From contig CASEYV010000005.1 in NCBI GenBank assembly GCA_949292245.1, forward strand, positions 1-43,540: a stretch of DNA of 43,540 nt. Reading direction: 5' to 3'. Position 1 is the first letter of the stretch. Each line of letters begins with the position of its first letter. The position numbers and the translations under genes are program-made. Under the pieces are notes generated by a model. That model was not told the DNA's origin. It saw nothing but the letters and a program-made list of their open reading frames with translations, and did no database searches. The stretch comes from an uncultured bacterium (GTDB lineage Bacteria > Bacillota_I > Bacilli_A > RF39 > UBA660). Below, piece by piece: positions 16,332-42,238 of the stretch.

Positions 16332-16337
16332 ATATAT

Positions 16338-16528
16338 GAAAAACGAAGATAAAGGACAAGTAATTATACATTTATTTTTAAGAGAATTAGTGTTTGGTGC
16401 AAACTAATAAATAGAGTATAATGAATCTACCTTTTAGTGAATTAAAAAATTCCGGGCGATACCGTTATCTAAAACAAGTAATAAAGGGTGGTACCGTGCT
16501 ATAAGCACTCCTTGGTATTACCTTTTTT
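16338..16528 (+). promoter_or_regulatory. T-box riboswitch, serine type (UCU specifier)
   Basis: This leader reads the charging of tRNA-Ser and lets serS be transcribed when uncharged tRNA accumulates. Stem I shows the AGAGA motif and distal loop (agagaattag, tttggtgcaaact) at 16381-16408; the returning strand has tgaaTCTacc with TCT (16426-16428) in the specifier position, a serine codon. The T-box proper, aaagggtggtacc (16483-16495), holds the UGGU that pairs with the tRNA end, and the competing terminator pairs it with ggtattacctttttt (16514-16528). The leader is compact, about 190 bases. Confidence 0.88.
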
Positions 16529-25788: not shown

Positions 25789-27657
<1,869 letters not shown>

Positions 27658-27662
27658 TTACT

Positions 27663-27714
27663 AAAAAAGAGGAGACAATAGTATCTAGTAAAGTCTAAAT
27701 ACTACTGACTCCTC
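27663..27714 (-). terminator. Attenuator terminator overlapping the leader ORF
   Basis: A 16-pair stem with two or three mismatches (27699-27714 with 27669-27684, outer part gaggag/ctcctc) followed by TTTTTT on the minus strand. The leader ORF's last codons form the 5' arm and its stop codon is in the loop. Confidence 0.75.
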
Positions 27715-27762
27715 ATTAAAATCAATATTATATATTTTAATTCTATCTTTGATTTTTATCAT
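27685..27762 (-). CDS. 25-residue leader peptide upstream of the integrase
   Basis: ATG at 27762 follows atggaggtacaccg, a strong site, and encodes MIKIKDRIKIYNIDFNEESV plus VFRLY. The last ten codons lie in the terminator stem. The homologous element after tRNA-Leu has a leader ORF in the same place (42049) with little sequence identity, which argues that translation of the region matters more than the peptide itself. Confidence 0.55.
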   Translation of the reverse strand: MIKIKDRIKIYNIDFNEESVVFRLY

Positions 27763-27807
27763 CGGTGTACCTCCATTTCTAGAGAATACCTCTTTCATTG
27801 GTTATAT

Positions 27808-27835
27808 ATAATATCATTTTTTTAAGATTTGTCAA
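27808..27835 (-). promoter_or_regulatory. Promoter of the integrase operon
   Basis: On the minus strand TTGACA (27835-27830), 16 bases, TATTAT (27813-27808). The other element has TTGACA-17-TATTAT at the same place. Confidence 0.6.
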
Positions 27836-27861: not shown

Positions 27862-28134
27862 TTAGATAGTTTTTAAATAATCTTCTAATTCAGATAATTT
27901 GATTTTATTAAATAAATTTTCAATAAAGACTTCGTTAGAATAATTAAATATTAAGAAAGTTTTATTTTTTATAATAATTCTATTTGGCTCAATATAAGTT
28001 AAATTAGTTCTATCTATCTTCCTTATATTTCCATTAATAATTGTTGGTGTTGTTTTAGCAAACTCACATATCAGTTCTAATTTCTTTCGCAAGTGTTCTT
28101 CAATAGGCAATTCTTCTTTAATAATATTTACCAT
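27862..28134 (-). CDS. Conserved 90-residue protein of the element family
   Basis: A small charged protein of no known family: MVNIIKEELPIEEHLRKKLE, IINGNIRKIDRTNLTYIEPN, and FNYSNEVFIENL. By my count 65 of 90 positions are identical to the protein at 41670 in the other element. It is the first gene inside the att end, has a good ribosome site (aaaggatgg), and is preceded by its own terminator and hairpin, so it may be a directionality factor or regulator of the integrase. That role is only inferred from position, size and conservation. Confidence 0.7.
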   Translation of the reverse strand: MVNIIKEELPIEEHLRKKLELICEFAKTTPTIINGNIRKIDRTNLTYIEPNRIIIKNKTFLIFNYSNEVFIENLFNKIKLSELEDYLKTI

Positions 28135-28243: not shown

Positions 28244-28320
28244 TGGTAGCGACGGTGTGATTCGAACACACGACCTGCCGGGTATGAACCGGATGCTCTA
28301 GCCAACTGAGCTACATCGCC
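28244..28320 (-). tRNA. tRNA-Met (CAT), elongator type
   Basis: A 77-base cloverleaf with encoded CCA. Acceptor ggcgatg/cgtcgct, D arm gctc..gagc, anticodon loop ttCATac (anticodon at 28284-28286), T arm gtgtg-ttcgaat-cacac. The G1-U72 pair and overall sequence are those of elongator tRNA-Met of Bacillota, not the initiator. The first anticodon-stem pair (U-C) is a mismatch. A tRNA-Ile with modified CAU is less likely. Confidence 0.92.
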
Positions 28321-41464: not shown

Positions 41465-41550
41465 GCCCGAGTGGTGGAATGGTAGACGCGGCGGACTCAA
41501 AATCCGTTGGTAGCAATACCATGTCGGTTCAAGTCCGACCTCGGGCACCA
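41465..41550 (+). tRNA. tRNA-Leu (CAA)
   Basis: An 86-base class II tRNA with a long variable arm and encoded CCA. Acceptor gcccgag/ctcgggc, anticodon loop ctCAAaa with anticodon at 41498-41500, T arm gtcgg-ttcaagt-ccgac. It reads UUG. The end of a mobile element follows directly. Confidence 0.95.
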
Positions 41551-41669: not shown

Positions 41670-41942
41670 ATGGTAAATATTATCAAGCAAGAAGTTAAAA
41701 TCGAGGAATCATTAAGAAAGAGATTAGAATTTATTTGTGAGTTTTGTAGAGTTAAACCAGTTATTATTAATGGTAATTTAAGAACAATAGATAAAACTAA
41801 TCTTACTTATTTAGAACCACATAGAATTATAATTAATAATATAACCTTTCTAGCCTTTAATTATTCTAATGAAATATTTATTGAAAATTTAAATAATAAG
41901 ATTAAATTATCGGAATTAGAAAACTTTTTAAAACATAACTAA
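41670..41942 (+). CDS. Conserved 90-residue protein of the element family, second copy
   Basis: Homologue of the protein at 27862 (65 of 90 identical by my count), same position next to the tRNA. Conserved core: IINGNLRTIDKTNLTYLEP, RIII, TFLAFNYSNEIFIENL, NKIKLSELE. Start ATG 41670 after aaaaagga; an in-frame ATG three codons earlier is less well placed. Still intact although the integrase of this element is broken. Confidence 0.7.
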   Translation: MVNIIKQEVKIEESLRKRLEFICEFCRVKPVIINGNLRTIDKTNLTYLEPHRIIINNITFLAFNYSNEIFIENLNNKIKLSELENFLKHN

Positions 41943-41964: not shown

Positions 41965-41993
41965 TTGACAAAATGAACTTTTAAGTATATTAT
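41965..41993 (+). promoter_or_regulatory. Promoter of the truncated integrase operon
   Basis: TTGACA (41965-41970), 17 bases, TATTAT (41988-41993); same arrangement as in the complete element. Confidence 0.6.
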
Positions 41994-42048
41994 ATAAAAC
42001 CAATAAATGACAAGCAGTATCCGTCTTTTATTAAAAAGGAGTTACACT

Positions 42049-42120
42049 ATGGTCAAAAGCGCAATTAATAAAAAATATAATATGAAATTAAGTGGAGTCA
42101 AAGGTATTAGTTTGAACTAG
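42049..42120 (+). CDS. 23-residue leader peptide of the truncated integrase
   Basis: ATG after aaaggagttacact encodes MVKSAINKKYNMKLSGVKGI plus SLN. Its last codons lie in the 5' arm of the next terminator. Counterpart of the leader ORF at 27685. Confidence 0.55.
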   Translation: MVKSAINKKYNMKLSGVKGISLN

Positions 42121-42140
42121 TATTTTTGACTCCCTTTTTT
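42094..42140 (+). terminator. Attenuator terminator, second copy
   Basis: ggagtcaaa/tttgactcc stem (42094-42102, 42125-42133) with leader stop codon in the loop region, followed by ctttttt. Confidence 0.75.
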
Positions 42141-42163
42141 GTAGGAAAAGGAGTTGAAGATTA

Positions 42164-42238
42164 ATGAATGAAGAAAAGAAAATCGCAGGACTTTATATTC
42201 GTGTTAGTACTCAAACCCGTCAAAGTGAGAAAAATTAA
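42164..42238 (+). pseudogene. Serine integrase, truncated after its catalytic serine
   Basis: Good ribosome site (aaaaggagttgaag, like the complete element) and ATG, then MNEEKKIAGLYIRVST, which aligns with the start of the complete recombinase (S15 kept). After RVST the frame reads QTRQSEKN and stops; the expected D-Q-A-x-E-G is absent. From about 42212 the DNA is unrelated, so this is a junction with other DNA rather than a point mutation. Confidence 0.8.

Follow-up and report, generated by a model that had tools for sequence, protein, structure and literature searches.

The window analysed here is a 43,540-nucleotide stretch of DNA that carries two copies of a compact regulatory module. 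In the first, on the minus strand, a promoter, a short leader ORF with its own SD, and an intrinsic terminator stand directly in front of an integrase gene. The integrase matches Pfam Resolvase (1e-36) and Recombinase (6e-18) as well as the integrase family phrog_95 (5e-109), and its Resolvase catalytic and Recombinase domains together identify it as a large serine recombinase. The next gene after the integrase encodes a Mob_Pre-type relaxase. The features of element 1 are as follows.

27862-28134, minus strand: 90-aa ORF between the tRNA and the integrase promoter
27808-27835, minus strand: sigma-70-type promoter, TTGACA-16-TATTAT, 11 of 12 consensus matches (-35 TTGACA at 27835-27830, 16-nt spacer, -10 TATTAT at 27813-27808)
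27781-27793, minus strand: P0, predicted alternative 5' hairpin AGAG-GUAUU-CUCU, which has one strand in common with P1
27767-27789, minus strand: P1, predicted SD-masking hairpin of the leader transcript, GUAUUCUCUA-GAAA-UGGAGGUAC
ending at 27770, minus strand: leader SD AATGGAGG, within AATGGAGGTAC
27685-27762, minus strand: leader ORF, ATG at 27762 to TAG at 27685, 25 codons, peptide MIKIKDRIKIYNIDFNEESVVFRLY
27663-27714, minus strand: predicted intrinsic terminator, stem 27714-27669, T-tail 27668-27663
25789-27642, minus strand: integrase (large serine recombinase), the gene predicted to be controlled, ATG at 27642

The end of the leader ORF is itself the 5' arm of the terminator, and the integrase SD and ATG come directly after the T-run. 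The T-tailed hairpin (-26 kcal/mol, 27714-27669) is the only terminator-like site between 27500 and 28400, where 0.1 would be expected, and the predicted fold of the leader, with an energy of -45.3 kcal/mol (z -4.3), was equalled by 0 of 200 shuffles. The stop codon, which the first-pass annotation had placed in the loop, occupies positions 28-30 of the 46-position hairpin, the first bases of the 3' arm adjoining the loop.

The second element lies on the plus strand and carries the following features.

41965-42140, plus strand: second copy of the module, matched by the class B model (E 5.7e-20)
41965-41993, plus strand: promoter, TTGACA at 41965, 17-nt spacer, TATTAT at 41988-41993
42049-42120, plus strand: leader ORF, 23 codons, peptide MVKSAINKKYNMKLSGVKGISLN
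42094-42140, plus strand: predicted terminator, hairpin 42094-42133
42164-42238, plus strand: start of a decayed integrase behind the module, ATG at 42164

Its layout (41965-42166) repeats that of element 1. The two-element arrangement described in the first-pass annotation is therefore real, with promoter, SD, ORF of 23-25 codons, overlapping terminator, and integrase SD found in both. The suggestion that an attenuator precedes an integrase in each element holds for this layout but not for an intact integrase in element 2, where the frame closes after about 24 codons and leaves a truncated remnant. The attenuator of element 2 thus no longer drives a working enzyme. Among relatives with integrase remnants (L253, L263, and L265), some join the integrase start to the end of an apparent relaxase gene; these remnants and that of element 2 point to internal deletions within elements. 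Elsewhere in the window, a T-box leader (RF00230) at 16337-16515 on the plus strand lies upstream of an apparent seryl-tRNA synthetase gene and is ordinary.

Conservation of the module was examined in the regions upstream of related integrases, 166 in all (139 distinct), drawn from genome contigs and whole genomes. In 147 of these regions a T-run follows a hairpin with an energy of -10 kcal/mol or better within 140 nt of the integrase start, and a few relatives were without a strong hairpin. Ninety-four distinct regions were picked for a clear promoter and terminator, so the comparable promoter seen at the same place in all 94 reflects the selection. A U-tail follows the hairpin in 94%. The integrase start lies 18-37 nt past the hairpin in nearly all relatives, and because of this spacing there is little room for another promoter between terminator and integrase. 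When one hairpin per cluster was taken, the terminator's own arms paired at -24.2 kcal/mol compared with -15.0 kcal/mol for arms swapped between hairpins, and 0 of 500 swaps were as good; in the class B terminator alignment, 6 of 17 pairs have changed on both sides. Compensatory change in the stem, a point on which the first-pass annotation had staked its reading, is thus present.

The same annotation had made its reading depend on a leader ORF in other members, and such an ORF occurs in most relatives. A frame that starts at an ATG behind an SD of 4 or more bases and ends inside the hairpin was found in 67-69 of the 94 regions (69 with a wider window), compared with 3.9-4.4% of dinucleotide-shuffled leaders. 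Taking one leader per similarity cluster gives 18-19 of 27 clusters, where the null for the observed 18 has a mean of 1.05 and a maximum of 4 (300 simulations), and the frames opened by SD and ATG stay open into the hairpin at 18 of 29 sites compared with 4.4 expected. The stop codon falls 9-34 nt inside the hairpin, and the order and spacing of the module recur in 27 leader clusters. About one-quarter of the leaders have no ORF into the hairpin. Some lineages (L024, L103, and L174-L177) carry a plain terminator and no ORF, and in a related pair (L130) the leader start codon has been lost, ATG to AAG, with a long integrase frame kept.

These features lead us to propose, as the probable reading, that ribosome-mediated transcription attenuation controls the integrase gene of a tRNA-associated mobile element that carries a Mob_Pre-type relaxase. 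RNA polymerase would start at TTGACA/TATTAT and by default stop at the terminator about 100-145 nt later, and little integrase would be made. The leader ORF, translated from a strong but masked SD, would lead ribosomes into the terminator and have them stop at the loop or 3' arm. A ribosome that had loaded early and reached the end of the ORF while the polymerase was near the U-tract would cover the 5' arm; the hairpin could then not form, and transcription would continue into the integrase gene. The masking structure (P1/P0) would set the frequency of read-through. In this scheme integrase is probably made only when ribosomes follow RNA polymerase closely, and the input would be how fast ribosomes and polymerase move or initiate relative to each other, not a specific amino acid or drug. 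That the hairpin terminates transcription, and that translation favors read-through, including the direction of the effect, are points we infer from the arrangement of the parts.

How far such a switch would open is suggested by work in other bacteria. In Escherichia coli, ribosomes repress a terminator that closely follows a stop codon, whereas translation lowers the efficiency of one placed 30 bp behind the start codon by only about 10%, and ribosomes have hardly any effect on terminators in the first 100 bp of an ORF (PMC4824070). Bacillus polymerase outruns its ribosomes (PMC7858274). The terminator proposed here falls inside that range, in the first 100 nt of the leader ORF. Because it is so near the ORF start and the polymerase is the faster partner, the effect of translation could be small unless the polymerase pauses; and given the ~10% effect in E. 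coli and the lead of the Bacillus polymerase, the default should be OFF. Opening the switch would need a polymerase pause or fast initiation, with a strong OFF bias. The earlier proposal that ribosomes passing through the leader block the terminator is no more than plausible. That translation state controls integrase transcription is the best reading, because the leader ORF is kept in most relatives and the terminator arms covary.

In many leaders the SD is itself masked, and a predicted SD-masking hairpin is present in 56 of 103 scanned leaders in 30 distinct forms. It spans GUAU to RUAC or similar, with the SD in its 3' arm. In class B, P0 shows covariation: its own arms pair at -4.95, compared with -3.92 when swapped, and 0 of 500 swaps were as good, again 0 of 500 among distinct forms. 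The GUAUC in its loop could pair with G(G/A)UAC just behind the leader SD, which would give a likely H-type pseudoknot in this class; the sequences fit pseudoknot and hairpin alike. The inner P1 helix of class B is no better than arm swaps, and the class A P0, that of element 1, is weak and indistinguishable from them; among SD-masking structures, only class B P0 and the GUAU:RUAC contact appear to us to be claimed with some force.

It could be argued that one of these structures is the first switch, with the masking P0/P1 or the class B pseudoknot binding a ligand or a protein such as the 90-aa companion, and with the ORF only relaying the decision to the terminator. The covariation of class B P0, its almost invariant loop, AAGCAGUAUC, and the pairing open to that loop would fit such a sensor, as would the 90-aa protein encoded beside nearly all elements. 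No known riboswitch or other Rfam family reaches its gathering threshold for the leaders, however, and the class A structure is smaller and unlike that of class B, whereas classes C and D have another one. In three genomes (L236-L238), moreover, a class A module has a tyrosine integrase on one side and a 207-aa ORF on the other, and there is no 90-aa companion among the ORFs listed for L236 and L237. We consider a ligand- or protein-operated first switch unlikely. The 207-aa ORF has no confident family match, and its position suggests that the attenuator module can serve another gene.

Classes C and D appear to follow a second route to the same switch. Most of their leaders are without the ORF overlap and have a predicted antiterminator instead, and many class C leaders have no clear ORF. 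A 5' segment (GUUUUAUGU; AUCUUUUUAA) can pair in two alternative ways, with a stretch close by that flanks a GGGG SD-like site or with the terminator's 5' arm, and the antiterminator duplex has z values of -2.7 to -4.3 in all folded members but one. Class C (for example, L014 and L087) has an almost invariant block running from GTTTTATGTTTT to GGGGTTAATATAAAAC, and its leader ORF is often missing or about 5 codons long. In classes A and B, to which the window copies belong, no antiterminator stands above shuffles. Neither the antiterminator classes nor the SD-masking structures figure in the first-pass annotation.

What selection has kept in the leader ORF appears to be its being translated into the hairpin and not the peptide that results. 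The stem is read in three frames (EESVVFRLY, RGVKGISLN, and KRSQRY, by 29, 23, and 14 leaders, respectively); the entropies of the three codon positions are about equal (0.80, 0.76, and 0.85 bits over 25 distinct class A leaders); and dN (0.56) is close to dS (0.40) in class A leader ORFs. From these three observations, translation rather than peptide seems to be conserved, which bears out the earlier remark that the leader peptides differ while the architecture is retained.

The leaders hold no conserved stalling peptide, as these rates and the differing peptides indicate, and no conserved regulatory codons or codon runs for an amino acid. By the tests run, the leaders are not of the amino-acid operon type, on the second ground, or of the drug-peptide type, on the first. 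The links to translation inhibitors and to entry into a new host that the first-pass annotation had offered thereby find no support, the former for want of a conserved stalling peptide. A related idea is that the leader senses something specific by ribosome stalling, either at particular codons, such as the Tyr-Asn pair TATAAT of classes A and B, or with an antibiotic, like amino-acid or erm/vmlR leaders. In favor of such a sensor, TATAA(T/C) is in frame in a weighted 6.3 of 20 clusters compared with 0 and 1 in the other frames, and the topology of classes C and D is like the anti-antiterminator/antiterminator arrangement of vmlR. The motif is missing from most clusters, however, and with no conserved peptide, no codon run, and dN close to dS, we find a specific sensor quite improbable. 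In classes A and B, where it is common, TATAAT lies in frame about 14-18 nt before the hairpin despite the differing stem frames, as in the window leaders at 27762-27685 and 42049-42120.

The genomic setting of the integrases bears on two further readings of the hairpin. At ~35 of 50 loci scanned, a tRNA gene of the same orientation precedes the integrase, whose start is about 600 bp from the tRNA 3' end, and one serine recombinase family is found directly behind tRNA genes for Met, Gly, His, Thr, Leu, Cys, and others; in the window this arrangement occurs at 28244-28320 and 41465-41550. The range of tRNA genes suggests a relaxed integrase target, for example, a common tRNA 3' region. No direct repeat was found at the far end of element 1. 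With a host tRNA operon reading toward the element, the hairpin could be a plain safety terminator against read-through and the overlapping ORF incidental, all the more so as terminators near stop codons are ordinary in Bacillus (PMC7858274). Yet the hairpin would also stop transcripts from the integrase's own conserved promoter, and the SD-led ORF occurs far above chance in independent clusters; we regard a mere safety device as very improbable. That the near-perfect inverted repeat adjoining the integrase gene serves for recombination or attachment, or as an operator for a protein, and not as an RNA element, is barely credible, since the U-tail stands on the integrase side in 94%, many changes preserve pairing only through G-U, as befits RNA, and the element end probably abuts the tRNA ~600 bp away. 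The attachment-site reading was rejected on that last point: because integrases start ~600 bp behind many tRNA genes, this repeat probably does not mark where the element ends.

The 90-aa family that accompanies nearly all elements is represented in the window at 27862-28134 (minus strand) and 41670-41942 (plus strand), where it separates the integrase promoter from the tRNA-proximal end of the element. There are 123 distinct homologues among the fetched loci. The AlphaFold model is confident (pLDDT 89); comparison with the PDB and with viral models gave no match, and no family match was confident. The protein is a candidate excisionase or integrase partner.

Covariance models built for three leader classes were used to follow the module further. 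Models R1 and R2, run on the genome to which the window belongs, match both window copies and one on another contig, and also give a weak reverse-strand match at the same site. The models match tens of genomes within the family, and nearly all matches checked precede a related serine integrase, intact or decayed. A class-wide sample of 149 genomes gave matches only in the same bacterial family; in the samples searched, the module is confined to this one family of uncultured gut bacteria. Among IMG/VR viral contigs there was no relative of the integrase and no exact copy of three terminator arms, and plasmids held no similar leader DNA. Integrase matches in phages and plasmids were below 60% identity and covered less than 80% of the query.

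The proposed attenuator has counterparts among known systems, classes A and B being expected to work like Tn916 tet(M) or pyrBI attenuation and classes C and D like vmlR. Tn916 is a mobile element in which a short leader peptide ORF precedes a terminator and translation state controls read-through into tet(M), and Tn916 as a whole responds to this attenuation. Attenuation by the tet(M) leader (orf12) is cited in PMC9154091. The integrase leader resembles it as a leader ORF before a terminator on a mobile element, with predicted translation-linked read-through, but the tet(M) leader controls a resistance gene, whereas the integrase attenuator would control the integrase directly, with a leader peptide that is not conserved and a module found in one uncultured family. 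In the E. coli pyrBI attenuator, the leader ORF overlaps the terminator and a ribosome following closely keeps the hairpin from forming, with no alternative structure involved, in a manner that depends on UTP-sensitive pausing. The integrase leader ORF likewise overlaps its terminator, with the stop 9-34 nt inside; it differs from pyrBI, whose trait is UTP-sensitive pausing, in that its SD is masked and its ORF ends inside the hairpin. The pyrBI attenuator is also named in PMC4824070.

The Bacillus subtilis vmlR leader has a tripeptide uORF, an anti-antiterminator/antiterminator/terminator topology, and a response to specific antibiotics (PMC9226507). Its uORF and topology resemble those of classes C and D, whereas classes A and B, including both window copies, have no detectable antiterminator. 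The mef(E)/mel leader, on Gram-positive mobile elements, shares the order of promoter, leader ORF, and terminator but has a conserved macrolide-stalling peptide and a long-range anti-attenuator of its own and controls efflux genes (PMC4335068). In Streptococcus pyogenes, antisense sRNAs upstream of prophage integrases suggest restraint of an integrase at the RNA level, although by antisense RNA and not by a cis leader ORF with a terminator (PMC6431027). The literature searched, with subscription journals and preprints mostly outside its coverage, held no report of a leader-ORF attenuator before an integrase. The design is thus already known from resistance and biosynthesis genes, and its use on an integrase is unreported in that literature.

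Overall, we tentatively suggest that integrase expression in this family is tied to translation itself, with structurally different leaders doing the same job without a conserved peptide, and that mobilization may follow a change in the pace of ribosomes and polymerase or in ribosome supply, for example, in translation stress or regrowth. The timing of a mobile element's entry into or exit from a chromosome is set by integrase expression. If the proposed attenuation is correct, a cis element would make horizontal transfer in gut bacteria depend on growth state or on translation-targeting drugs with no regulator protein. It would also come with about 100 natural variants that differ in peptide, frame, and helper structure but retain the switch, a series that would be useful for learning what an attenuator needs where polymerase may outrun ribosomes.
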